From NCBI GenBank assembly GCA_017307165.1, contig JAFKGK010000001.1, positions 248,001 through 312,000 on the forward strand: a DNA stretch of 64,000 nt, in the 5' to 3' direction. This document shows, piece by piece, positions 8,852 to 26,210 of the stretch. The notes under the pieces are model-generated. The model was not told the DNA's origin, did no database searches, and saw only the letters and a program-made list of their open reading frames with translations. The first letter of the stretch is position 1, and each line of letters starts with the position of its first letter. Source of the DNA: Candidatus Melainabacteria bacterium (GTDB taxonomy: Bacteria; Cyanobacteriota; Vampirovibrionia; Obscuribacterales; Obscuribacteraceae). The position numbers and the translations under genes were made by a program.

Positions 8852-10168
8852 ATGGCCAAGCTGCTCAATCGCGACGAGCTAAAGCAAAAACGCGACAAGT
8901 ACATCGTCCCTGGCGTCAAGCAGATGTACAAGGATGCTCCGCACTTTGTCCGCGGCAAAGGACAGTATCTCTATGATGAGACTGGTCGTGAATACCTCGA
9001 CATGTTTGCTGGCATCGTCACAGTCTCCGTCGGTCATTGCCACCCCAAGGTGACGCAGCGTACGCAGGAGCAGCTAAATACTCTGCAGCATACTTCTACT
9101 ATTTTTATGACCCAACCCATGGTCGACCTTGCTGAAAAGCTCGCCGAGATCGCACCTGGAGCCATCTCCAAATCTTTCATCACAAATTCGGGAACAGAAG
9201 CCAATGAGGCTGCGATCCGTTTTGCACGCCTGGCAACGGGCCGCCACGAAGTGATCGCTCTCGAGCACTCCTATCATGGCGAGTCGCATCTGGCCTCGAC
9301 TCTTACCGCCAATTACAACTGGCGTCCTAAAACCATGCCAGCAGCCGGCGTCGCTTATGCAGCCAATGCCTATTGCTATCGCTGCCCATTCAAAAAGACT
9401 CCGGATAGCTGCTCTCTAGAGTGTGCCAAGGATGTCGAAAGAGTGATACAAACCCAGACCAGTGGCCAACCTGCGGTCATGATCGCTGAGCCGATACAGG
9501 GCGTTGGTGGTGCCATTACGCCACCACAAGAATACTTTGGTGCAGTAAAAAAGATCCTCGAAAAATACGGTGCACTATTTATCGCAGACGAAGTCCAGAC
9601 TGGTGTCGGTCGCACTGGCAGGGACTGGTTTGGTATCTCTAGCTGGGGTGTTACTCCCGACCTGATCACCATGGCCAAAGGCCTGGCCAACGGCCTGCCC
9701 ATTGGTGCTTGCCTGATGACTCCCGAGATAGCCGAGCATTCGACAAAACAGCAGATCAATACTTTTGGTGGCAATCCAGTCTCGAGCGCTACTGGTCTAG
9801 CTGTATTAGAAACCATCCAAGAAGAGCGTTTGATGGAAAATGCTGATGTGCAGGGCAATTACATAATGAGTGCCCTGAAAGAAATGCAAAAGGATTTTCC
9901 CGATCTCATTGGTGACGTTCGTGGCAAAGGGCTGATGCTAGGCGTAGAATTGGCCGACAAGCACAAGACACCTCTGGTGGAGCAATGCGCCAATATAGTC
10001 GAGATGTCTAAAGACGATGGAGTGATCATCGGTAAGGGCGGTCTTTTTGGCAATACCTTGCGGATCAAGCCGCCCATGACTATCACTCGGGACAATGCCG
10101 ATACCATGCTCAAAGTACTCAAAAAATCCCTGGAAGCAACTAGCAAGAGGATGACTGCCAATGTCTAA
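8852..10168 (+). CDS. Class III PLP-dependent aminotransferase (beta-alanine/AGXT2-like)
   Basis: 438-residue fold-type I aminotransferase. PLP-binding features: NSGTEANEAAIRFAR (112-126), Asp246 in FIADEVQTGVGRTG, and the Schiff-base Lys276 in TMAKGLANG. The Cys-containing CYRCPFKKTPDSCSLEC segment (175-191) is typical of the alanine-glyoxylate aminotransferase 2 / beta-alanine aminotransferase group. As first gene of a pyrimidine-degradation operon, its likely job is to convert beta-alanine to malonate semialdehyde; another omega-amino acid is possible. GAGAGGTG stands before the ATG. It overlaps the next gene by 8 bases. Confidence 0.85.
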   Translation: MAKLLNRDELKQKRDKYIVPGVKQMYKDAPHFVRGKGQYLYDETGREYLDMFAGIVTVSVGHCHPKVTQRTQEQLNTLQHTSTIFMTQPMVDLAEKLAEIAPGAISKSFITNSGTEANEAAIRFARLATGRHEVIALEHSYHGESHLASTLTANYNWRPKTMPAAGVAYAANAYCYRCPFKKTPDSCSLECAKDVERVIQTQTSGQPAVMIAEPIQGVGGAITPPQEYFGAVKKILEKYGALFIADEVQTGVGRTGRDWFGISSWGVTPDLITMAKGLANGLPIGACLMTPEIAEHSTKQQINTFGGNPVSSATGLAVLETIQEERLMENADVQGNYIMSALKEMQKDFPDLIGDVRGKGLMLGVELADKHKTPLVEQCANIVEMSKDDGVIIGKGGLFGNTLRIKPPMTITRDNADTMLKVLKKSLEATSKRMTANV

Positions 10169-11048
10169 TATCGTACGCTGCGGTTTGATCCAGACCAAAA
10201 ACGAGGTAGTCGCCACCAAGGGTGGTACTGACTCCAAGATGCTGACCGAGATAAAAGAAAAAATGCTGGCCAAGCATCTGCAATACACCAAGCAAGCTCA
10301 TGAGAAAGGCGTCAAAATCCTTTGCTATCAAGAGATCTTTAATGGTCCGTATTTTTGTGCCGAGCAAGAGACATGCTGGTACGACACCGCAGAATCCATT
10401 CCTGATGGTCCGACCATCCAAAAGATGCAGGAGGTTGCGCGGCAATATGAGATGGTCTTGATCGTACCCATCTACGAAAAAGAGCAGACTGGCATCTACT
10501 ATAACAGCGCTGCCGTCATCGATGCCGATGGCACATATCTCGGCAAATATCGCAAAAACCATATTCCTCACGTAGCGCCCGGCTTCTGGGAAAAATTCTA
10601 TTTTCGACCAGGCAATTTGGGATATCCGGTTTTTGAAACCAGGTATGCCACCATAGGCGTCTACATCTGCTACGACAGGCATTTTCCCGAAGGTGCGCGA
10701 GCACTGGGTCTCAATGGTGCCGAAATCGTCTTTAATCCGTCTGCTACGGTCGCCGGGCTCTCCGAGTATCTATGGAAGCTCGAGCAGCCAGCACACGCTG
10801 CTGCCAACGGTTATTTTGTGGGAGCGATCAATCGCGTAGGTACGGAGGAGCCCTGGAACATAGGACACTTTTATGGCTCCAGTTATTTTTGCGATCCGCG
10901 CGGGCAGATAGTGGCTCAGGCGAGCCGCGAAGAAGAAGAATTGCTTGTAGCCGATCTGGACCTTGATCAAATAAAAGAAGTCCGCCATACATGGCAATTT
11001 TTTAGAGACCGCAGACCCGAAACCTACGAAGCTCTCGTCGAGCTCTGA
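10161..11048 (+). CDS. N-carbamoyl-beta-alanine amidohydrolase (beta-ureidopropionase, nitrilase fold)
   Basis: 295-residue carbon-nitrogen hydrolase. The catalytic triad is visible: Glu58 (YQEIFNGPYFC), Lys132 (GKYRKNHIPH) and Cys170 (VYICYDRHFPEGARAL). The HVAPGFWEKFYFRPG segment and the C-terminal RDRRPETYEAL fit beta-ureidopropionases, which hydrolyse N-carbamoyl-beta-alanine to beta-alanine, CO2 and ammonia. N-carbamoylputrescine amidases are close relatives, but the operon (PreT and PreA downstream, aminotransferase upstream) favours the pyrimidine role. Its start overlaps the aminotransferase end by 8 bases, suggesting translational coupling. Confidence 0.85.
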   Translation: MSNIVRCGLIQTKNEVVATKGGTDSKMLTEIKEKMLAKHLQYTKQAHEKGVKILCYQEIFNGPYFCAEQETCWYDTAESIPDGPTIQKMQEVARQYEMVLIVPIYEKEQTGIYYNSAAVIDADGTYLGKYRKNHIPHVAPGFWEKFYFRPGNLGYPVFETRYATIGVYICYDRHFPEGARALGLNGAEIVFNPSATVAGLSEYLWKLEQPAHAAANGYFVGAINRVGTEEPWNIGHFYGSSYFCDPRGQIVAQASREEEELLVADLDLDQIKEVRHTWQFFRDRRPETYEALVEL

Positions 11049-11087
11049 TCGCTGCGCTTAAACCAAAATCAAAATATTAGGAGCAAT

Positions 11088-12470
11088 ATGGCCGAGCATT
11101 TCAAGCCCGTCAAGTATCGTGCCTGGGAAATGTCGCTGGAGGAGAGATTTAAAGAAGTCTACCCGCCTCTGACGCAGCGGGAAGCAGAAGCCGAGGCCAA
11201 CCGCTGCCTCTACTGCTATGATGCACCGTGCATGGTGGCGTGTCCCACTCATATAGACATCCCCACTTTCATCAAAAAAATCGGCACTGGCAATGTCAAA
11301 GGATCGGCGCGCACCATCCTCGAGTCCAATCTCATGGGTGCCACCTGTGCTCGGGTCTGTCCTGTGGATGTATTGTGCGAGGGCTCTTGCGTCTTGCGCG
11401 AAGAAAAGCCCATCGCCATCGGCAGATTGCAGAGATATGCGACCGACTATGCCAATGAGAGAGAGATAAGATTTTTTGAGAAAGGCAAGCCCAATGGCAA
11501 AAAAGTTGCAGTGATTGGTGCTGGTCCGGCAGGATTGTCCTGCGCCGGAGAACTCGCCAAAACTGGTTTTGATGTCACTGTCTTTGAAAAGCGCACCTGG
11601 GCCGGTGGACTTTCTACTTATGGCATAGTGGTTTTTCGCGAGCCTGTGGAGGTCAGTCTCCGGGAGGTCAAGATGATCCAAGACCTCGGCGTACAGGTCA
11701 AATGCGGGGTCGAGATAGGCAAAGACATTGATTTTGATGAGATCATGTCTGAGTTTGACGCTGTCTTTGTCTCTATCGGTTTAGGGCGCGTGCCTCAAAT
11801 GGAGATCCCTGGCGAGGACGCCGAGGGGGTTCTGGACGGACTGGATTTTATTGAGGAGACCAAAGTAGACAGGCTCGATAAGATCGATGTGGGCCAGCGT
11901 GTCTGTATCATCGGTGCTGGCAATACGGCGATTGACTGTGCCACCATTGCTAGACGTCTAGGATCTGAACGCGTGACTATGATCTACAGGCGCTCCGAAG
12001 CCGAGATGCCTGCATACTATTTTGAATACCAGTTTGCGCTCAAAGAGGGCGTGAGCTTTATGTTTCTCACTCAGCCCATCGAAGTGATCAAAAATGCCCG
12101 AGGTCAGGTCGAAGGGCTCAAGTGCGTGCGTATGGATCTCGGTCAACCAGACGCCTCCGGCAGACGCAGCCCCGTAAGGGTGCCGGACTCCGAGTTTGTT
12201 GTGCCCTGCGATCGAGTAATCAAGGCGATCGGTCAAAATAAGCCCAAAGACTTTATGGATATTTTGGCCCCGCTTGGGGTGCAGCAAGCTAAGGGGTATA
12301 TCGCAGTCGACCCGGCCACCAATCGCACGGGCAATCAAAAAATCTATGCCGGAGGGGATTGTGTCCGCAGCTTTGGCGAGGCATCGACTGTGATGGCAGT
12401 GCAAGATGGCAAGATCGCTGCCAAAGCGATTGCAAGAGAGCTTGTCTCGATCGAGGGAGAAAACAAATAA
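11088..12470 (+). CDS. preT: NAD(P)-dependent dihydropyrimidine dehydrogenase subunit PreT
   Basis: 460 residues; the electron-input subunit of bacterial dihydropyrimidine dehydrogenase, homologous to the N-terminal half of mammalian DPD and to the GltD small subunit. N-terminal Fe-S cysteines are at 40, 43, 48, 52 and 87, 91, 97, 101. The FAD site GAGPAGLS starts at residue 144 and the NAD(P)H site GAGNTAID at 276. The C-terminal NQKIYAGGDCVRSFGEAST is the conserved second FAD contact. An AGGAGC ribosome-binding site precedes the ATG. The TAA stop shares one base with the ATG of preA, so the partner subunits are probably made in a coupled way. Confidence 0.92.
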   Translation: MAEHFKPVKYRAWEMSLEERFKEVYPPLTQREAEAEANRCLYCYDAPCMVACPTHIDIPTFIKKIGTGNVKGSARTILESNLMGATCARVCPVDVLCEGSCVLREEKPIAIGRLQRYATDYANEREIRFFEKGKPNGKKVAVIGAGPAGLSCAGELAKTGFDVTVFEKRTWAGGLSTYGIVVFREPVEVSLREVKMIQDLGVQVKCGVEIGKDIDFDEIMSEFDAVFVSIGLGRVPQMEIPGEDAEGVLDGLDFIEETKVDRLDKIDVGQRVCIIGAGNTAIDCATIARRLGSERVTMIYRRSEAEMPAYYFEYQFALKEGVSFMFLTQPIEVIKNARGQVEGLKCVRMDLGQPDASGRRSPVRVPDSEFVVPCDRVIKAIGQNKPKDFMDILAPLGVQQAKGYIAVDPATNRTGNQKIYAGGDCVRSFGEASTVMAVQDGKIAAKAIARELVSIEGENK

Positions 12471-13813
12471 TGGTCGATTTGTCGATAGACTTTGCTGGTA
12501 TCAAATCTCCCAATCCTTTCTGGTTGGCATCCGCACCGCCTACTAATAGTGGCTATCAAATACAAAAGGCCTTTGACCAGGGCTGGGGTGGGGCTGTCTG
12601 GAAGACGGTAGGCGCACCAGTCCTCAATGTCTGCAATCGTTACGGCACCATGGACTACAAGGGATCAAAGATCATTGGTCTCAATAATGTGGAGCTGATC
12701 TCGGACAGACCTATCGAGATCAATCTAAGAGAGATGCGTGAGACCAAGCGCCTCTTTCCTAACAATGCTGTAATCGCCTCGGTCATGGTGGAGTCAAAAA
12801 AAGAAGCCTGGCAGGAGATCATCAAACAGATCCAGGACACAGGTGTGGACGGATTTGAGCTCAACTTTGGTTGTCCGCACGGCATGTCTGAGCGTGGTAT
12901 GGGTTCGGCCATGGGGCAGGTACCCGAATACACATGCATGGTCACCGATTGGGTCATGGACGTAGCCGAGATACCTGTCATAGTCAAGCTCACTCCCAAT
13001 GTCACCGATATTGTGCATCCGGCCAGAGCCGCTGTAAAAGGGCGAGCAAGTGCTGTTTCCCTCATCAATACAATCAATAGCATCATGGGTGTGGATGTGG
13101 ATACATTTGAGATCCAACCCAATGTCGGCGGTAAGGGCGGCCACGGTGGCTATGCTGGACCAGCGGTCAAACCAATCGCCTTGCACCTGCTATCTGCCAT
13201 AGGGGCGGACAAGGAGTTTGCTCAGGCGGGTATTCCTATATCTGGCATGGGCGGCATCGAGACATGGCGCGATGCCGTCCAATTTATGCTCCTCGGGTCG
13301 ACATCGGTGCAAGTCTGCACGGCCGTAATGCACTGGGGCTTTCGCATAGTCGAAGATATGATCGAAGGCATGTCCAACTGGATGCAAGATAAAGGATTCG
13401 AGCGCTGCTCCGATTTTATCGGTAAGAGTCTACCTCGTATTTCCAACTTTGGTGATTTTGATTTGGGCTTTCAGTCTGTCGCTCGGATCGATCACGACAA
13501 GTGCATACAATGCAATCTGTGCTATATCGCCTGCAATGATGCAGCGCACCAGTGCATTGATCTGACCAGCATGCAACTATCCGAAAAGACCCTGCAAAAT
13601 GGCAGGCCATGGCCCGTGGTCCGTGAGGCCGATTGTGTCGGATGCGATCTGTGTTCCCGTGTTTGTCCAGTTGACGATTGTATCGAGATGGTCGAGATCG
13701 ATACAGGACGTCCTCACATAAGTTGGAATCAATTGGTGGCACAAAAACCAGAAGTTCTCGAGTGGGACAAAATGGAAGAATATCGCAAGCAGGCCAATAT
13801 AGTCATTCATTGA
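12470..13813 (+). CDS. preA: Dihydropyrimidine dehydrogenase catalytic subunit PreA
   Basis: 447 residues. The N-terminal FMN-binding TIM barrel (residues 1-320) reduces uracil or thymine to the dihydro form. The C-terminal ferredoxin part has two 4Fe-4S motifs: Cys345/348/351/355 (CIQCNLCYIAC) and Cys389/392/395/399 (CVGCDLCSRVC). Substrate-binding segments are NFGCPHGMSERGMG and KLTPNVTDI. The residue aligned with the catalytic cysteine of mammalian DPD (in ACGQ) is Met148 here (SAMGQ). I chose the ATG at 12470, which has GGGAG upstream and overlaps the preT stop; a longer frame from 12359 would extend into preT. Confidence 0.92.
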   Translation: MVDLSIDFAGIKSPNPFWLASAPPTNSGYQIQKAFDQGWGGAVWKTVGAPVLNVCNRYGTMDYKGSKIIGLNNVELISDRPIEINLREMRETKRLFPNNAVIASVMVESKKEAWQEIIKQIQDTGVDGFELNFGCPHGMSERGMGSAMGQVPEYTCMVTDWVMDVAEIPVIVKLTPNVTDIVHPARAAVKGRASAVSLINTINSIMGVDVDTFEIQPNVGGKGGHGGYAGPAVKPIALHLLSAIGADKEFAQAGIPISGMGGIETWRDAVQFMLLGSTSVQVCTAVMHWGFRIVEDMIEGMSNWMQDKGFERCSDFIGKSLPRISNFGDFDLGFQSVARIDHDKCIQCNLCYIACNDAAHQCIDLTSMQLSEKTLQNGRPWPVVREADCVGCDLCSRVCPVDDCIEMVEIDTGRPHISWNQLVAQKPEVLEWDKMEEYRKQANIVIH

Positions 13814-13852
13814 TTTGGTGATCCGGGCTAGACTAAAAGGGGTTTTATTTTG

Positions 13853-14761
13853 ATGGCTGGTTACAAACAGACGCTTGCATCGAGTATCTTTCTCGTTGCG
13901 GTGATTTTGGGCACGTCGATATCGCAAATTGCAGGCTTTATTTTTGTTGCACCACCAGTAGAGGCACAAACCTTGCAAGAGCCCAGAGCCAGCTATGACA
14001 AGCGTTTTATCGACGATCTCATCGCCAAGATGACCCTGCAAGAAAAATTAGGACAGATGAATCTCTTGTCCATAGGTTCGGATGTCACTGGCCCCGTCTT
14101 GTCCGAAGGTGTCGAGGACAAGATTGCTCGTGGTGAAGTTGGTGGCGTCTTTAATGCTTTTGGTCTACCCGCCTGCAAAAGGCTTCAGGACATAGTGATG
14201 CAAAGATCGCGTCTCAAAATCCCGCTCATTTTTGGCTATGACGTGATCCATGGCCACAAGACTATTTTTCCCATCCCGCTTGCTCTCTCTTGTTCTTTCG
14301 ATCTCGATCTCATCCAAAAGACAGCAGCTGCGGCTGCTGATGAGGCTACTGCTGATGGTATCAACTGGACATTTTCGCCTATGGTCGATATCTGCCGCGA
14401 TCCCCGCTGGGGGCGGATCATGGAAGGTGCGGGTGAAGACCCTTATCTTGGGAGTCGTATAGCCGAAGCCATGGTGCGAGGATACCAGGGCCCAGGTATG
14501 AGACCAGGCGATCTTAGCTTGCGGTATGCCAAAGACAAGCTCTTGTCTTGTGTCAAGCATTTTGCCCTCTATGGAGCTGCCGAGTCTGGTCGCGACTATA
14601 ACACTGTCGATATGAGCCGGGGGCGCATGTTCAACGAATACATGCCTCCGTACAAGGCCGCTGTGCTGGCCGGTGCTGCAACAGTTATGACTAGTTTTAA
14701 TGAGGTCGATGGAATACCTGCATCCGGCAATAAGTGGCTAATGACTGACCTCTTTTCTTAA
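13853..14761 (+). pseudogene. GH3 beta-glucosidase (BglX-like), N-terminal fragment of a disrupted gene
   Basis: 303 residues: a signal peptide (through PPVEAQT) and the first part of the GH3 TIM barrel, with LTLQEKLGQMNLL-like MTLQEKLGQMNLLSIG, FGYDVIHGHKTIFPIPL, NWTFSPMVDICRDPRWGRI and SCVKHFALYGAAESGRDY. The frame stops soon after GNKWLMTDL, before the catalytic Asp region (usually V-S-D) and all later domains. Intact BglX enzymes have about 750 residues. A degraded C-terminal piece of the same family is found at 17240-17445 on the same strand, so the gene was interrupted by the intervening DNA. The ATG at 13853 has AAAAGGGG upstream. Even if expressed, it should be inactive. Confidence 0.85.
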
Positions 14762-14877
14762 TCCCAGACCACTCACTGTAGCTCCTAATTCCCAGCCTTG
14801 GACCACTCCAGATTGTACGACCGACCGTATAGGCCGGTAGCTTAGCAGTTCAACCCATCTCTCCACAGGACAGCAAA

Positions 14878-15147
14878 ATGCCACAGAACGAATCAAAAGC
14901 TCACCAAGCCAACCGGTCCTTTTTTCAGCGCTTCTGGTGGCTTCTTTCCTTTCTGATCGGGTTCATTTCTGTTGATTTGATCATCGCTTTGGACTTCTAT
15001 ATTCACGAAATGAATCACAACAATGAGGGCTTAAATGTGTTCCTCGGATGCCTATGGATGGGCTTATTTGGTGGGTTTCCTGCTGGACTGTTGTGTGTGC
15101 TGTGCGCATGGCTGGTCAAATATTGGCGCAGCCGCAAATCAACGTAA
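14878..15147 (+). CDS. Small membrane protein in the insert
   Basis: 89 residues with a basic N-terminus and two membrane segments, about 19-39 (WWLLSFLIGFISVDLIIALDF) and 55-79 (LGCLWMGLFGGFPAGLLCVLCA), and a basic C-terminus (KYWRSRKST). No family recognised. AGGA is placed 8-9 bases before the ATG. The stop codon abuts the stop of the convergent lysozyme-like gene without any gap. The size and topology would suit an immunity protein, holin or small membrane regulator, but nothing in the sequence decides this. Confidence 0.55.
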   Translation: MPQNESKAHQANRSFFQRFWWLLSFLIGFISVDLIIALDFYIHEMNHNNEGLNVFLGCLWMGLFGGFPAGLLCVLCAWLVKYWRSRKST

Positions 15148-16467
15148 TCAAGGCAGATAGCGAAGAACGTTCTTAATATGTTCGGAAGCGCTTATTGTTT
15201 CAGCAGTGTTTGCCCAGTACTCCTTTCTTTGATCCCAGTGCTGGGCCTTCGATAGTTCGATATTTGGATGATATAACGCCTTATAAACCCGGTGCCCGTG
15301 TCCATCTGAATATGAGTAAACATCAGGGTTGTATGCGTATGCCAGTTGCGCATCAGTGGGATTCTTGATTCCGTGTTTATGCAAATCCTCCAGGAGGGTA
15401 GCTGTTTTTGCGGCTACGATCATTGCCACACAGTCTGCATCGAGTAGGGCTCTTAACTCATGGCCAGGACCTGAATAGCCCTTGGACTCAAGGAAATGGC
15501 GAAACTGTGGATAGTGATTTTCAAATTTTCTAATCCCTTCTGTCGTAATTTGCGTCATGCCTAATGTCCATCCGCCGTCCTTTCCAAGCTTTGCGGCCAC
15601 GTCTTGCTTGTGATCTTCAAATCCATAGCACTCTAGCTCATTGCGCACATAGGCTTTCATAATGCTGTTCGAAACACCACCCAGTTGAGGGAAACAGGCT
15701 TTTGCTTCCTCCCAGGCTTTCGGGTTTGCGTTGGTTGTTGCGCTCATCAAATTCGCTTCCATGCCTGCAATTGGATGTTCGCTCGTCCATGTTTTGATTG
15801 TACGCATAGCAACGTTAGCCGCTGCTATTGTCGATTCCTTTGTTATGCCTAACTGCTCCATGCTTGGAACGAGCGTCGGAGGCACCATGTAACCATCCAG
15901 AGCTTGGGCAATCTGCTGAGCCTGTGAATCGTTTTTGAGTTCCTGTGCCGGTTGCTCAAGCTTTGGTCCGTTTGGCATTACGTTCGCCGCCAGCAATACC
16001 GGCTCTGGGTGTGCGCTGCTGTCGAACAATTCAAATTTTTGTGATGCTTCCTTCTTCGCGCCTGGTCTATAGAACATGTCTGTGGCTGATTCCTCTTGCC
16101 CTAACATGTGATGCTGTTGGGTCTCGCGCCAGTTTGCTTGCAATGCTTGGTTCTTTATCACGCCGCCGCGCAAGATGGTTCCTGATGCGGCCTCAGGTTT
16201 GGCTACTTCCTTTGGTTTGTCTGCTTCGTCACTCATTGCGGTAGCTCCGGGCTTGTAGACTTTCATATACCCTTTTTCGGTATAGGCCAAGTCATCCAAT
16301 AAGTGCAAGTCGCCAAAGATGCCCATGGTATCGGTATCGGTGGAGCTTGTTGCCAGCTTTCTCATGTCAGTCATGTTCCAGGAGCTTGCCGCAATGTTGG
16401 CATAAGTGGCTACCTCGGCTTGTTCAGGGCCGCTGCTAATTCTCTCGGCTATCTCCTGGTGTGCCAT
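15148..16467 (-). CDS. Protein with C-terminal lysozyme/lytic-transglycosylase-like domain
   Basis: 439 residues with no signal peptide. Residues 1-260 are low in similarity to anything I know, with Ala/Glu/Lys-rich linkers (about 75-125). Residues about 266-385 show the layout of a soluble lytic transglycosylase fold: YVRNELECYG (candidate catalytic Glu277), GWTLGMTQITTEG (301-311, like the S-x-G-x-x-Q-I motif), and LAYAYNPDV (375-383, like the A-Y-N motif). It may cut peptidoglycan glycan strands. Lack of a signal suggests another export route or a lysis-type role. AAGGG precedes the ATG. It sits inside DNA that interrupts a GH3 gene. Confidence 0.6.
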   Translation of the reverse strand: MAHQEIAERISSGPEQAEVATYANIAASSWNMTDMRKLATSSTDTDTMGIFGDLHLLDDLAYTEKGYMKVYKPGATAMSDEADKPKEVAKPEAASGTILRGGVIKNQALQANWRETQQHHMLGQEESATDMFYRPGAKKEASQKFELFDSSAHPEPVLLAANVMPNGPKLEQPAQELKNDSQAQQIAQALDGYMVPPTLVPSMEQLGITKESTIAAANVAMRTIKTWTSEHPIAGMEANLMSATTNANPKAWEEAKACFPQLGGVSNSIMKAYVRNELECYGFEDHKQDVAAKLGKDGGWTLGMTQITTEGIRKFENHYPQFRHFLESKGYSGPGHELRALLDADCVAMIVAAKTATLLEDLHKHGIKNPTDAQLAYAYNPDVYSYSDGHGHRVYKALYHPNIELSKAQHWDQRKEYWANTAETISASEHIKNVLRYLP

Positions 16468-16669
16468 TGCTGCCCTTTAGAGCTGATAATACTTGGGAGA
16501 TCTGAACTTCTCCTGAATACTAGGCTATCTGGGTTTGTTGGCTAAGTTTTGGCAAGGAGTCTGCTTAAACTAGAGCACGGTGCTCGACCTGCATCATTAG
16601 ACTTCATCGCTTTTCTCGATGTGCTCAGCGACTTGTTTTAATTTGCCATCCTGCTCTAATTGTTTCAAG

Positions 16670-17239
16670 TCATTTATGCCATTCTAAATCCACCTTGTCC
16701 TTTATCAGGTCGATGTCTCCTTTCTTTCTCTCCTGCTGGTTTCGATACCAAATATCTTTAATGAGCTCTCGAAACTCTTTGAGGATTTCACCTATGCCGG
16801 TGAAGGAAAAGCCGCCAGGCGGACTCATCTTAGCCTTGTGAATACGGCACCGCTGATCAGGGGAGGCGTATAGATCAATCTCTTGGTAAATTTGTACTGG
16901 TGTTGAGGACACGGCTATTCCAAATGGATTGATTGCCGCTGCTGCATTGCCTGATTCCAAAACATCAAGCCACATCTCAAAGGGAAATGGCTCAGGGTAG
17001 CGCATTTCGCGTTTGCTAAAAATGTTCTTGATTAAGCCTTCGCGGTTTTTCAAATCGTTGGCCCAGCGCTCTGACCAAAGGTATGTTGCTAGACGAGAAT
17101 CGTAAATGCGCGAAATGCTTACAGCCAGTAATTCTAAATCGCCTGTTGTCCAGTCTCCATCTGTGAAGAATGAAATAGTCGATGACTCATTTTTTGCTTC
17201 TGTGGCGTCGCTGTCATCATCGTCGTCATCAACAGGCAT
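16670..17239 (-). CDS. Hypothetical acidic protein at the edge of the insert (possibly 5'-truncated)
   Basis: About 189 residues from the ATG at 17239. It starts with an acidic run (PVDDDDDDSD), then a folded-looking domain (SFFTDGDWTTGDLELLAVS, YPEPFPFEMWLDVL) and a charged helical C-terminus (IGEILKEFRELIKDIWYR). Not recognised. DNA directly upstream of the ATG is the GH3 remnant, and no ribosome-binding site is visible, so the true start and promoter may have been lost at the junction. Just past the TGA another frame (to TAA at 16597) reads NDLKQLEQDGKLKQVAEHI, which looks like coding sequence; the natural C-terminus may have been cut off by a frameshift. Confidence 0.5.
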   Translation of the reverse strand: MPVDDDDDDSDATEAKNESSTISFFTDGDWTTGDLELLAVSISRIYDSRLATYLWSERWANDLKNREGLIKNIFSKREMRYPEPFPFEMWLDVLESGNAAAAINPFGIAVSSTPVQIYQEIDLYASPDQRCRIHKAKMSPPGGFSFTGIGEILKEFRELIKDIWYRNQQERKKGDIDLIKDKVDLEWHK

Positions 17240-17445
17240 CGCGACAGGCAAACCTATAGTCCTGGTGCTCTTTAATGGCCGTCCTTTGACTCTGTCATGG
17301 GAGGATCAAAACATGGATGACATCCTCGAGACCTGGTTTAACGCATTGCTCTCGCGCCTCGAGAAGCAAAAACTGTGCAATTTGCAATCACGGCTGCCGA
17401 CCTGGCATTTTATGGCAGTGATTTAAACCTTTGTCCCAAGTAAGT
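17240..17445 (+). pseudogene. GH3 beta-glucosidase, degraded C-terminal remnant
   Basis: The plus strand reads ATGKPIVLVLFNGRPLTLSW and on to DILETWF, matching the conserved start of the BglX C-terminal domain strand (K-P-V-V-L-V-L-x-N-G-R-P-L). From 17342, two bases out of phase, it reads RIALAPREAKTVQFAITAAD then LAFYGSDLN, matching the fibronectin-III-like end of GH3 enzymes. About 150 expected residues between these blocks are absent, so there is an internal deletion with a frame change. Together with the fragment at 13853-14761 this marks one broken gene. No start codon or ribosome-binding site serves it. Confidence 0.8.
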
Positions 17446-17480
17446 AAGAGCTTAATTTTGGGGGTTGTAAAAGTTTGATA

Positions 17481-17810
17481 CTAGGCAAAATAATCTAAGA
17501 CCAGTCGGTTTGCGACTGGTCTCTGGTTTTGGAGATCGTCTGCTAGCTCGCGCGCCAGGCCCGGCCAGTCTGCGAGCTCTATGCCCTGGTAGCGCTTTGA
17601 TTTGAGGTCTGATGCCTGCTCCATCCAGCCACGCCAAAAATGGATCGCTATGATTAATTGCTCGTCGCCAGGCAGAGTCTTTTGATCATCATTGAGATAG
17701 GGATGCATGTTGGGCTCCTCGATGCCTATGTCGGCAAAAAGCCTCAATTCGTGACGGATTGCGTCGGCACGCAAACTATCGATTAATATATTTCTGAGAG
17801 GTTCTAGCAT
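17481..17810 (-). CDS. Hypothetical protein
   Basis: 109 residues from the ATG at 17810; a TTG 12 codons upstream is possible. The product is cytoplasmic, helical and rich in Leu, Asp, Arg and Trp (LIIAIHFWRGWMEQASDL, ELADWPGLARELADDL). Not recognised. It diverges from the alpha/beta hydrolase gene across only 26 bases, so their control regions must overlap. A second reading frame at 17452-17637 is a shadow. Confidence 0.5.
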   Translation of the reverse strand: MLEPLRNILIDSLRADAIRHELRLFADIGIEEPNMHPYLNDDQKTLPGDEQLIIAIHFWRGWMEQASDLKSKRYQGIELADWPGLARELADDLQNQRPVANRLVLDYFA

Positions 17811-17836
17811 AGTGTTTTGAAAGTGTTGCTGTCTTG

Positions 17837-18829
17837 ATGCACCCAAGCCAAATTTTATTGATTATAGCCTTGATTACGAGCCTTTTGCCTTTTGCGTCTT
17901 TGGAGACCGCCATGGCTGCATCGCAGGAAACACGCATAGAGGGAGTAAGCCCTCGCGACAACTTTTATCTAGTGACTAATAGACGCACCGTCGAAAAGAA
18001 GGACGGGCATATGCAGTACAACAGGCTCGGTGGAGATCTGTTTGGCAAGCAAGATGATGCTTATAGCTTTAGCGTCAGCAAGCCGGGTAGCACTGTATTG
18101 ATCGATCGAGACAGATTTTTTGCCGATCTCGAGAGTCGCGAATGCCGCGATCGTCCGCTGGTAATATTTGTGCATGGCTGCTGCGTATCCCTGGGAGAGA
18201 TGTTTAAACAGGCGCGTGGCCTCAAAAATGCATTCGAAAAACAATGCGGCCCCATCGACATGGTCTGCTATGACTGGTCTACGCCTTCGGGCAATTATCC
18301 GGCCTCTCTCTCTCGAGTCGAAGCTATGAATGCTTCGTTCAACGAATTTTTGCAGCAATTACCAGAGGGCCTCAAGTCTCACAAGGGGCGCCCCCTGATC
18401 CTCGTCACTCATTCGCTTGGCGCATATTGTCTTGTCGATAGGCGCAGTAAAGATAGTGTCATAGACCGTGACTCGATTTTCAGTGCTTGCTTTTTTTCAC
18501 GGCCTGATATTACTCAAGACCAATTTTTTGCAAGTTATCCTGCCTTCAAAAATATTGCAGGTAGGTACTTTTTACTCAAGGCGAGCAATGACCCAAATCT
18601 CAAACTTTCTGCCTTGGTGAGGAGTCGCCCCTTTGCCAGCAACCGTCAAAATCGTCGCTTGGGTCTGTTTGCTGATGATGACGCTCTTGAACGTCTCGAT
18701 CCGGAACGTTTGTCAGTGATAGACGTTAGCGAGCTCAAACTCGGTCACGTTATACCGTATGAAAAAATCGCCTCTCTTTATAAAGAGATGATAGGGATAA
18801 AATCAGGAGAAACACGCAAAATAAACTAA
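17837..18829 (+). CDS. Exported alpha/beta hydrolase (DUF900-like)
   Basis: 330 residues. The signal peptide runs to about residue 28 (LLPFASLETAMA). The core resembles the DUF900 branch of the alpha/beta hydrolase superfamily: oxyanion strand LVIFVHGCCVSLGEMF (108-123), DMVCYDWSTPSG (141-152) and nucleophile elbow THSLGAY with Ser193. LGHVIPYE near the C-terminus supplies a likely catalytic His. The substrate is unknown; an esterase or lipase acting outside the cytoplasm is probable. The gene ends 9 bases before the RND adaptor gene and may be transcribed with it. No strong ribosome-binding site is seen. Confidence 0.75.
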   Translation: MHPSQILLIIALITSLLPFASLETAMAASQETRIEGVSPRDNFYLVTNRRTVEKKDGHMQYNRLGGDLFGKQDDAYSFSVSKPGSTVLIDRDRFFADLESRECRDRPLVIFVHGCCVSLGEMFKQARGLKNAFEKQCGPIDMVCYDWSTPSGNYPASLSRVEAMNASFNEFLQQLPEGLKSHKGRPLILVTHSLGAYCLVDRRSKDSVIDRDSIFSACFFSRPDITQDQFFASYPAFKNIAGRYFLLKASNDPNLKLSALVRSRPFASNRQNRRLGLFADDDALERLDPERLSVIDVSELKLGHVIPYEKIASLYKEMIGIKSGETRKIN

Positions 18830-18838
18830 ACTATAGCA

Positions 18839-20293
18839 ATGGATCTGCAAACCGACGAGCGGCTCGAAAGAGCTCTAAAAGCCAAAGCTACAGGCACTCA
18901 AAGTGGTAAGCCCAGAGCTTTTTTACTGATCGGTACGGCCGTCACAATAGCGGCTGTTCTCTCAGGTGTTTTGCTATGGCAAACTCACAATGCAGTCAGC
19001 GCTCCGCATAAAAATACTGGTCCCGATCGTGCAGCTCTCACGGTCAAGGCCAGCGCTGTGGCAATCAGGCCAGTGCAAAAGAGTCTATTGGTTTCAGGAG
19101 GTGTCTGGGCGTGGGATCCAGTGCAAATCGGCAGTGAGATCAATGGCTTGAGAGTGACCGACATCTATGTCGACGAGGGCGCTTATGTCAAAGCTGGACA
19201 AGTGCTCGCACGTCTCAACAATAGCGTGCTGGCCGCACAGGCGGGCAGACAAAAAGCCCGTCTAGAAGGGGCGGAGGCAGCTTTGCTCAAGGCTCTGCAA
19301 CCCAATCGTCCCGAAGACCTCAGTGCTCTGGAGGCTGCTTTTGCTCAAGCCAAGGCACAGGTCGCCCAAGAAGAAGCCAGCCTCGAAAGAGCCCAGGCCA
19401 CCCTTGCCGAATCCTCAGCAAATGCCAGGCGCTATCAAGATTTGGTACGCCAGGGCGCAGTATCAGCCGAGGATTTTGATAAGAGGCTGACATTGTCTAA
19501 GGTTGCTCATGCAGAAGTCACAAATGCTCAGCAAAAAGTCAGCGCGGCCAAGTTTAACGCAGAACAAGCGCACCAGAGGCTGAGTATGGGTTTGAGCGGC
19601 GGTCGGCGTGAGGACATCGATATATCGAGATCTCAGGTGGCTGAGATCCGAGCCAACTACCAAGAATTGCTTTCTCAGCTGCGCCAGACTGAGATCAAAG
19701 CCCCTGCTGCTGGTCTCATCTCTCGCCGCATGGTGCATATTGGTGATATCGCATCCAGTACCAAGCCCATGTTCGATCTCGTGCGCGATGGGCGTATGGA
19801 ACTCAGGGCGCAAGTTCCCGAAAACGATCTGCCTTCAATAGCTGTCGGGCAGCCAGTACAAGTCCTGGCCAGCAAGGTAGACGATTTTAAAGGCAACTCC
19901 ACAGTCAAGGGGGTTGTCCGCGAGATCAGTCCAGCCATCGATCAGGATACAAGACTGGGACTGGTGCGTATCGATCTCGACTTGCCCAGAGATCGCATAG
20001 GCCTCTTGCGTCCAGGCAATTTTGTCAAAGGCGAATTAAATCTTGGACTGAGGAACGCGCCGACAGTACCGAGCCAGGCTGTGGTCTACCGGGATAATCG
20101 GGCGCTAGTCTACATCCTCGAAAAGGGCGCCGGCGCCCAGCGTAAGGTGCATATGCGCTATGTCAAGATCGGCTCGCGGTCTCGTGTCGATGGAGCCGTA
20201 GAGATACTCTCTGGTCTCAATCCGGGAGACCTTGTAGTGCAGTCCGGTGCTGGCTTTTTAAAAGAGGGAGATCTGGTGAGAGTGGTAGATTAG
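18839..20293 (+). CDS. RND efflux system periplasmic adaptor (membrane fusion protein)
   Basis: 484 residues: an N-terminal membrane anchor at about 26-48 without lipobox; the first half-lipoyl motif VDEGAYVKAGQVLARLNN; a long alpha-hairpin with coiled coil (about 125-245, many Ala, Glu and Gln); the second half-lipoyl motif IKAPAAGLISRRMVHIGD; then beta-barrel and membrane-proximal domains. It bridges the inner-membrane pump encoded directly downstream to an outer-membrane channel. The permease gene follows after 19 bases. Confidence 0.92.
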   Translation: MDLQTDERLERALKAKATGTQSGKPRAFLLIGTAVTIAAVLSGVLLWQTHNAVSAPHKNTGPDRAALTVKASAVAIRPVQKSLLVSGGVWAWDPVQIGSEINGLRVTDIYVDEGAYVKAGQVLARLNNSVLAAQAGRQKARLEGAEAALLKALQPNRPEDLSALEAAFAQAKAQVAQEEASLERAQATLAESSANARRYQDLVRQGAVSAEDFDKRLTLSKVAHAEVTNAQQKVSAAKFNAEQAHQRLSMGLSGGRREDIDISRSQVAEIRANYQELLSQLRQTEIKAPAAGLISRRMVHIGDIASSTKPMFDLVRDGRMELRAQVPENDLPSIAVGQPVQVLASKVDDFKGNSTVKGVVREISPAIDQDTRLGLVRIDLDLPRDRIGLLRPGNFVKGELNLGLRNAPTVPSQAVVYRDNRALVYILEKGAGAQRKVHMRYVKIGSRSRVDGAVEILSGLNPGDLVVQSGAGFLKEGDLVRVVD

Positions 20294-24161: not shown

Positions 24162-26210
24162 TTAGTTGCGCATTTTATTGATGCCATTTTCGATGGATTG
24201 CTTGATCGCCGCCAGCCATTGATTGTTTGCTTGCAAGGCTGCGATAAAATCCTGACCTTCGCTTTGACCTAGATCCTTGATGACTCCTATCTGCTGATAA
24301 GGGCCTAGCCTGGCTCGAGCTGAGCGATTGGACTTGATTGCCTGGTCGATCTGTCCGAGATCTATATCGACCATGGCGATCTTGTTGTCGGCAAGCGAGG
24401 CATTGTATGCCGCAGTCGGTTTATCTGCTATTGAAAGCCAGTGTGGCAGTGCTTTTTGATAATTTTTAAGGGCTTCTTCCTTCATCTTGCTTTGATGCAT
24501 GATGTCGGCATAGCGGCTGTAGGCGAGTGCCGCAAATCTTTTGCCCTGCTCGTCCTGAGAGATCTTGCGTTCGTCGCAGTCTTCAAAGTCTTGTATCGAT
24601 TGATAGAGCATCTGGCGGGAGTCTTCAGTAGCATGCATGCGGTAGAGCGAGTCTCCGATCGCTGCCTTGAGGCATGGATAGAGTCTGATCGCTCGATTGT
24701 CGGCATAGGCGGTCTCGATGCGCGAAAGCGAGGATGAGCGCGTAGATACCCATTGATAGTTGCCTGCAAAGTATTCGCTAAACAAGGCATCGACTTCGCA
24801 TTCGACTGTGGGGTAGGCTCCTTCTCCGTTTTCTCTCGAGCTGATCTCGTGACAGATGCGATAGATCTCTGCTGCTCGTCCAAAGAGCTGCGCCTTGAAG
24901 GCCAGATCCCCGCCCCTGATCAGATATTGCAGATTGGTATTGGGATCGTCACCTTCCAGTTCTGTAGAAAGATCGAGCCTTTCTGATTGGCCTTTAGATT
25001 TGTCTTTGTGTGCGCCTCTCTCTTTGAGGCGCATGGCCTTAGTGAGAACGGCGCCTGTTGCCGATTCGGCGGTAAGCTGAGCATTTTTGATCGTAGCGTC
25101 TGGTATGGCCAGCCGCCAATCAGGTTTGCCTGTAGCCTCAGGGAGTGACTCTTGACCGAGCATGTAGAGAAAGCCCGTAACAGAGCCTGTCAGGATAATG
25201 CCCAGAATGGCCAGGGTACAAGCAATGAGGGTATATTTTTCGGGAGTGCTCAGTCTCTGTCTTCGTGATTTGAAAATATCGAGACCTGCTCGTACTCGCG
25301 CCAGTCCGCCACGATTGTGAGCTGCGTCTATCTCGTCCAGGGCTTGTCTGACTTGCAAGGCTGTCTGAGGTCTGTCCTGAGGATCTTTTGCCAGGCATCT
25401 AAAGATCAATGCCTCCATAAATGGCGAGATCTCTGCTTCGGGATTTGCATCTCGTATGGGACGAGGCGCTTCTTTCATATGCCGATACAAGATTTCCAGC
25501 ATGTTTTCGCCTTCGATCGGCGGCTTGCCGGTAAGACACTCGTAGATCATGCAGCCAATAGCATAAATATCAGAGCGAGCATCGGTCTTTTCTCCGCGGC
25601 ATTGCTCAGGGCTCATATATAGTGGGCTTCCAAAGACTTCTCCAGTCTGGGTCAAGACTACTGCTCCCGCATCTTGCTGATTTTGCGGCAGGAGCTTGGC
25701 TATGCCAAAGTCGACTATCTTTGGTCTGTATGTATCTCCTATACGAGCCAGCATGACATTGCTGGGTTTGAGATCGCGATGCACTATACCTTTGCTGTGG
25801 GCCCATTGCAGTGCATCCAAAAGCTCTTTAAAGAGAGCGATGGTCTCTGCCTGCGGTAGCCATTGCCTGGATTTGATCTCTTCGGATAGGCTAGGACCAT
25901 CGATGAGATCCATGATTATGTATGGCCTCTCATCCTCGAGCAAGCCAAAATCTATGATACGAACGACGTTGGGATGTTCGATCTGGCTTGCTGCCTGGGC
26001 CTCTTGCTTAAATCTCTCGCGAGTGATTTTGTTATGGGCTAGATGAGGGTGCAAGACTTTGATTGCGACTTGATTGCCGAGCAATTGATGGCGAGCTGCC
26101 CAGACGATGCTCATCCCGCCCTCTCCCAATTTTTTTTGGATCAAAAAATGCCCGGCGATTGTCGCGGGCATCTCGCCGTGGCTTTGATCGAGAAAGGGCT
26201 GGGAGGGCAC
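24162..26210 (-). CDS. Membrane-anchored Ser/Thr protein kinase with extracytoplasmic helical-repeat domain
   Basis: 682 residues. The cytoplasmic Hanks-type kinase domain (about 18-293) has the Gly loop LGEGGMSIV (28-36), Lys51, HRDLKPSN (144-151), DFG (167-169), and SPLYMSPEQ in the activation loop; all key residues are present, so it should be active. A membrane segment follows at 327-351. The outer part (about 355-682) is helical with TPR-like stretches (YSRYADIMHQSKMKEEALKN). It probably senses an outside signal. GTG at 26210 or ATG at 26174 could start translation; neither has a strong ribosome-binding site. It is divergent from pyrD. Confidence 0.88.
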   Translation of the reverse strand: MPSQPFLDQSHGEMPATIAGHFLIQKKLGEGGMSIVWAARHQLLGNQVAIKVLHPHLAHNKITRERFKQEAQAASQIEHPNVVRIIDFGLLEDERPYIIMDLIDGPSLSEEIKSRQWLPQAETIALFKELLDALQWAHSKGIVHRDLKPSNVMLARIGDTYRPKIVDFGIAKLLPQNQQDAGAVVLTQTGEVFGSPLYMSPEQCRGEKTDARSDIYAIGCMIYECLTGKPPIEGENMLEILYRHMKEAPRPIRDANPEAEISPFMEALIFRCLAKDPQDRPQTALQVRQALDEIDAAHNRGGLARVRAGLDIFKSRRQRLSTPEKYTLIACTLAILGIILTGSVTGFLYMLGQESLPEATGKPDWRLAIPDATIKNAQLTAESATGAVLTKAMRLKERGAHKDKSKGQSERLDLSTELEGDDPNTNLQYLIRGGDLAFKAQLFGRAAEIYRICHEISSRENGEGAYPTVECEVDALFSEYFAGNYQWVSTRSSSLSRIETAYADNRAIRLYPCLKAAIGDSLYRMHATEDSRQMLYQSIQDFEDCDERKISQDEQGKRFAALAYSRYADIMHQSKMKEEALKNYQKALPHWLSIADKPTAAYNASLADNKIAMVDIDLGQIDQAIKSNRSARARLGPYQQIGVIKDLGQSEGQDFIAALQANNQWLAAIKQSIENGINKMRN

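Follow-up and report, generated by a model that had tools for sequence, protein, structure and literature searches.

A young-looking BglX-type GH3 pseudogene filled by a candidate modular effector cassette

We analysed a 64,000-nucleotide stretch (the window) of a Candidatus Melainabacteria genome (4.6 Mb, 35 contigs, 92% complete) and found in it a BglX-type GH3 gene that is broken in three places and survives as three collinear pieces on one strand. To the joint reading, namely that this is a recently inactivated BglX-type GH3 pseudogene holding a modular effector cassette acquired by illegitimate joining, we assign a probability of roughly 0.66. That the GH3 gene is an ordinary, young-looking pseudogene with an unusual filling is confirmed by the comparisons below; the filling matters more than the break.

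The N-terminal fragment is a 303-residue open reading frame (ORF; 13850..14761, plus strand), identified by profiles and by comparison with relatives; it matches Pfam PF00933 over profile positions 1-237 of 316 (E 4e-51) and the NCBIfam BglX model PRK15098 (positions 29-274 of 765) and is 62-74% identical to relatives from the same bacterial family, and in named records several of its closest GH3 matches carry the label uncultured cyanobacterium or Candidatus Obscuribacterales. The original prediction had placed the end of this part at about 14750, which the codon comparison refines to about 14754. On the same strand, a remnant of the GH3 C-terminal domain (TGKPIVLVLFNGRPL...ILETWF; 17244..17339, frame 17232) matches PF01915 (positions 109-143, E 4.9e-4) and shows 74-90% identity with intact relatives, with tblastn E-values as low as 1e-17, and an Fn3-like remnant (IALAPREAKTVQFAITAADLAFYGSDLNL; 17345..17431, plus strand) follows in a different frame (17231) and matches PF14310 (positions 28-52, E 3.7e-4). 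The short length of the two C-terminal pieces explains their modest Pfam E-values (about 4e-4); tblastn locates both of them, in order, within intact GH3 genes of relatives. The proposal that GH3 resumes near 17240 and closes with an out-of-frame FnIII-like end is thus borne out, the interval 17240-17445 giving profile matches when searched for C-terminal GH3 homology, and alignment to intact relatives (750-831 residues) shows pieces that agree with them in strand, order and spacing, with parts missing. Compared with a BglX-type GH3 beta-glucosidase (PRK15098; PF00933, PF01915, PF14310), the window gene keeps ordered remnants of the N-terminal, the C-terminal and the Fn3-like domain, but it lacks about 420 residues, the nucleophile motif among them, is interrupted by 2.49 kb and lies in two frames.

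A foreign segment (14755..17243, edges within a few bases by codon comparison with relatives) stands in place of about 260 GH3 codons; its length, about 2.49 kb, agrees with the 2.5 kb of unrelated genes first described. We infer an insertion because the GH3 pieces bracket this foreign DNA in order. The segment encodes an 89-residue small membrane protein (14878..15147, plus strand), a putative immunity partner whose relatives lie beside homologues of the next gene; a 439-residue, mosaic, effector-like protein (15148..16467, minus strand) in direct tail-to-tail contact with the membrane gene; and a 189-residue orphan ORF (16670..17239, minus strand) whose ATG (17237-17239) falls at the right GH3 junction, where its 5' end may have been cut, and for which we found no relatives in 49 other genomes of the family or in plasmids. 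Like the original prediction, we found no transposase, integrase, terminal inverted repeats or target duplication at the GH3 break, and the edges carry just short, chance-like repeats. This lack of transposon hallmarks makes illegitimate joining of DNA the likeliest route, one of two origins that had been put forward; the other, a much-eroded element, is better replaced by a more precise description, in which the segment holds an open, modular, effector-like gene with a recurring 3' partner. Two other candidates were rejected: an ACAGGC pair (17233 and 17244) as a transposon hallmark, being six bases long and absent from the left edge, and a phage or plasmid origin, the 439-residue protein being unmatched in phages and plasmids and neither of its modules occurring in viral contigs.

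The site itself is variable. On the left lies a PreA-like gene (DHO_dh plus 4Fe-4S; 12359..13813, plus strand, likely true start about 12458; PF01180 E 2e-31, PF14697 E 2e-18) that is conserved across the family, and on the right a conserved alpha/beta-hydrolase-like gene (17834..18829, plus strand; PF05990 E 1.4e-4). Six genomes of one genus keep the order of these two genes and of those beginning at 18839 and 20313 (both plus strand; the last of the six is cut by the contig end), and in them the PreA-like and hydrolase genes are nearly adjacent, with neither GH3 nor insert; in the window they are 4.0 kb apart, separated by the GH3 N-terminal part, the insert, the GH3 C-terminal pieces and a small ORF. 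The original prediction had called for an intact gene at this spot in a close relative as proof, and we found none: no intact GH3 occurs at the site among the family genomes examined, and syntenic relatives carry no GH3 between the same neighbors. A GH3 gene between the PreA-like and hydrolase genes is specific to the lineage of the window genome. The small ORF (109 residues; 17484..17810, minus strand) is also lineage-specific at this site; it has weak relatives (37-40% identity) in two genomes only (G010 and G009), in unrelated surroundings. More broadly, the interval from the PreA-like gene to the hydrolase or its downstream gene varies across the family, with different lineage-specific genes in it (window 13813-17834; loci L134, L203 and L136).

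The 439-residue protein is a mosaic of two modules. Its N module (15973..16467, minus strand; profile A3/A6), with a conserved core at about 15949-16254 that closes in W...SATD...KFELFD, is 87% identical to its counterpart in genome G004, 64% to that in G009 and 36-40% to those in G013, whereas the C module (15151..15789, minus strand) is 69-72% identical to G013 and 29% to G004. At the genus level, the N module reaches 87% to genus g5 and the C module 72% to g14, the opposite pairings giving 29% and 36%; as a yardstick, the conserved neighboring genes that start at 8852 to 12359 (plus strand) reach 77-85% identity with G004 and 71-79% with G013. DNA alignments place the switch in similarity between about 15876 and 16015, matching the mosaic seen in the protein.

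By motif, the C module resembles a lytic transglycosylase: a conserved Glu at module residue 51, GxxQ and YN occur in the order known for family-1 lytic transglycosylases. This order is shared with the SLT domain (PF01464), but the spacing of the motifs differs. An hhalign comparison with SLT domains from this bacterial family put the three motifs in register at a non-significant E of 0.14, and Pfam, PDB and fold searches did not support a transglycosylase: PDB sequence searches returned nothing or only designed helical proteins at the top, and a single-sequence fold model of the module (pLDDT 54) had no usable match.

The pairing of the 439-residue protein with a small membrane gene recurs, in homologous form, at five loci in four other genera; the two genes are convergent with overlapping 3' ends in G013 (twice), G004 and G009, and run in the same direction in G001. 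In 10 of the 13 other scanned members that have the window-type C module, the 3' end is overlapped by a small ORF predicted to form one or two membrane helices; in the remaining three (L230, L235 and L236) no small membrane ORF was seen in the scan of the 3' side. Across 12 loci, C-module identity tracks the identity of the membrane partner (Mantel p 0.0025), and N-module identity showed no correlation with it in the same test. In a second G004 copy (L228; G004:C169:36032-36478, minus strand), only the last residues of the C module survive and stops interrupt the N module, but the adjoining small membrane ORF is intact. Both the co-variation of the partner and the pattern at L228 would be expected of an effector paired with an immunity gene.

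By profile search, 16 of 50 family genomes have the N module, against none of the 385 others in a phylum sample (which may itself include family members); the module is unmatched in Pfam, PHROGs and NCBIfam. It stays constant on exchangeable C-termini, of which many are of the window type, three carry HExxH, one is DUF6883 and others are unassigned. The DUF6883 protein (L229:1501-2718, plus strand; domain above the cut-off) has a co-directional DUF4926 gene 9 bp downstream; the window's 439-residue protein carries neither of these two domains, and we found no literature on DUF6883. The proteins with the C-terminal HExxH-type motif (L216, L221 and L223) are possible metallopeptidases, their Pfam matches being sub-threshold only. 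One genome, G064, has four N-module copies (L224, L231, L235 and L236). Two of these, L224 and L235, have about 610 bp of N-module DNA in common (at 87%) but differ in their C modules.

Polymorphic toxins exchange C-terminal domains while the remainder is kept (Zhang et al. 2012, PMC3482391), and the proteins described here resemble such systems (PMC3482391) in having a constant N module, exchangeable C-termini, a small gene by the C-terminal end and a degraded copy that retains its partner; they differ in that the window N module lies outside the Pfam leader families, the partner is mostly convergent and toxicity is putative. Our best reading of the insert is a polymorphic effector-immunity cassette. 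The leader-like N module, common to many proteins of the family, would serve in export; the C module would cut peptidoglycan, with a presumed enzymatic activity and toxicity; and the tail-to-tail small membrane protein would protect the producer as its putative immunity protein. Partner genes that are convergent rather than co-directional are unusual for effector-immunity pairs.

A possible though clearly less probable account keeps the GH3 pseudogene as we describe it but makes the 439-residue protein an enzyme of cell-wall remodelling, helped or regulated by the membrane protein, both of them gained at a variable site through the ordinary turnover of genes. Such turnover is in keeping with the other lineage-specific genes that occupy the corresponding PreA-hydrolase interval in G004, G063 and G022. 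For a housekeeping enzyme, however, it would be unusual to find the N module on unrelated C-termini and modules exchanged, or a partner that co-varies with the C module and is retained where, as at L228, the C module has been lost, and we prefer the effector-immunity cassette. Whether the cassette belongs to an undescribed polymorphic effector family of one Obscuribacterales family, with a new N-terminal leader module, diverse C-terminal domains and convergent 3'-overlapping immunity genes, that spreads by insertion and in one such insertion destroyed a glycosidase here, we judge to be about an even bet. Literature searches turned up no publication about antibacterial effectors in this Obscuribacterales group. 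The N module, found only in one bacterial family and on exchangeable C modules, is a searchable marker, and expressing the C module either alone or together with its partner would be a simple test of whether these uncultured bacteria fight their neighbors in this way.

The GH3 gene has lost more than was first supposed. At the 2.49-kb break, 259-265 residues are missing relative to nine of ten intact relatives and 277 relative to the other. Between the two C-terminal pieces, about 133 residues (400 bp) are deleted with a frameshift: the gap between the matches of these pieces is 405-408 bp in most relatives versus 5 bp in the window, and the frame changes because about 400 bp (3n+1) were lost. 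About 27 residues are missing from the C-terminal end, for a total loss of about 420; the original prediction was right that the nucleophile is gone, but its estimate of roughly 300 lost residues was too small. GH3 homology stops about 12-15 residues ahead of the (S/T)DYTA motif of the relatives, whose Asp is the GH3 nucleophile, such that no complete catalytic barrel with this residue is present.

Of 82 near-invariant GH3 positions only two are changed, including one right at the junction, which indicates that the break is young relative to the divergence of the compared genera. The branch of the GH3 fragment is long (rank 3 of 93 in a rate test, which is not decisive) and could reflect an older relaxation. 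An open frame of 303 codons with its near-invariant residues intact is also what a functional short GH3 protein under selection would look like, but this ORF stops inside the catalytic barrel, before the nucleophile, no close family relative is cut at the same point, and a recent break accounts equally well for the intact residues; we regard a functional short protein as quite improbable. In the pseudogene reading that we prefer, a BglX-type GH3 gene, lineage-specific at the PreA-hydrolase site, would recently have been inactivated: about 260 codons from its middle, the nucleophile among them, would have given way to the foreign 2.49-kb segment, and its C-terminal part would have lost about 133 and about 27 codons in two additional deletions. 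On this reading, the segment would have arrived later than the GH3 gene and in a single event.

A chimeric join in a metagenome assembly comes to mind for what is apparently a draft assembly of an uncultured organism, but we consider it very improbable, given that both edges of the insert rejoin the same gene in order, the extra internal deletions fall outside the insert, and an intact GH3 copy occurs nowhere else in the assembly. The genome has no other GH3 of the same type, so that this is not a misjoined second copy. Close GH3 relatives (E below 1e-100) occur in 17 other genomes of the family, at other positions wherever the flanks were read. Elsewhere in the window, a 682-residue gene (24162-26210) has relatives of 29-44% identity over partial length that lie near the intact GH3 gene in several genomes of the family (for example, at L126, L204 and L207).
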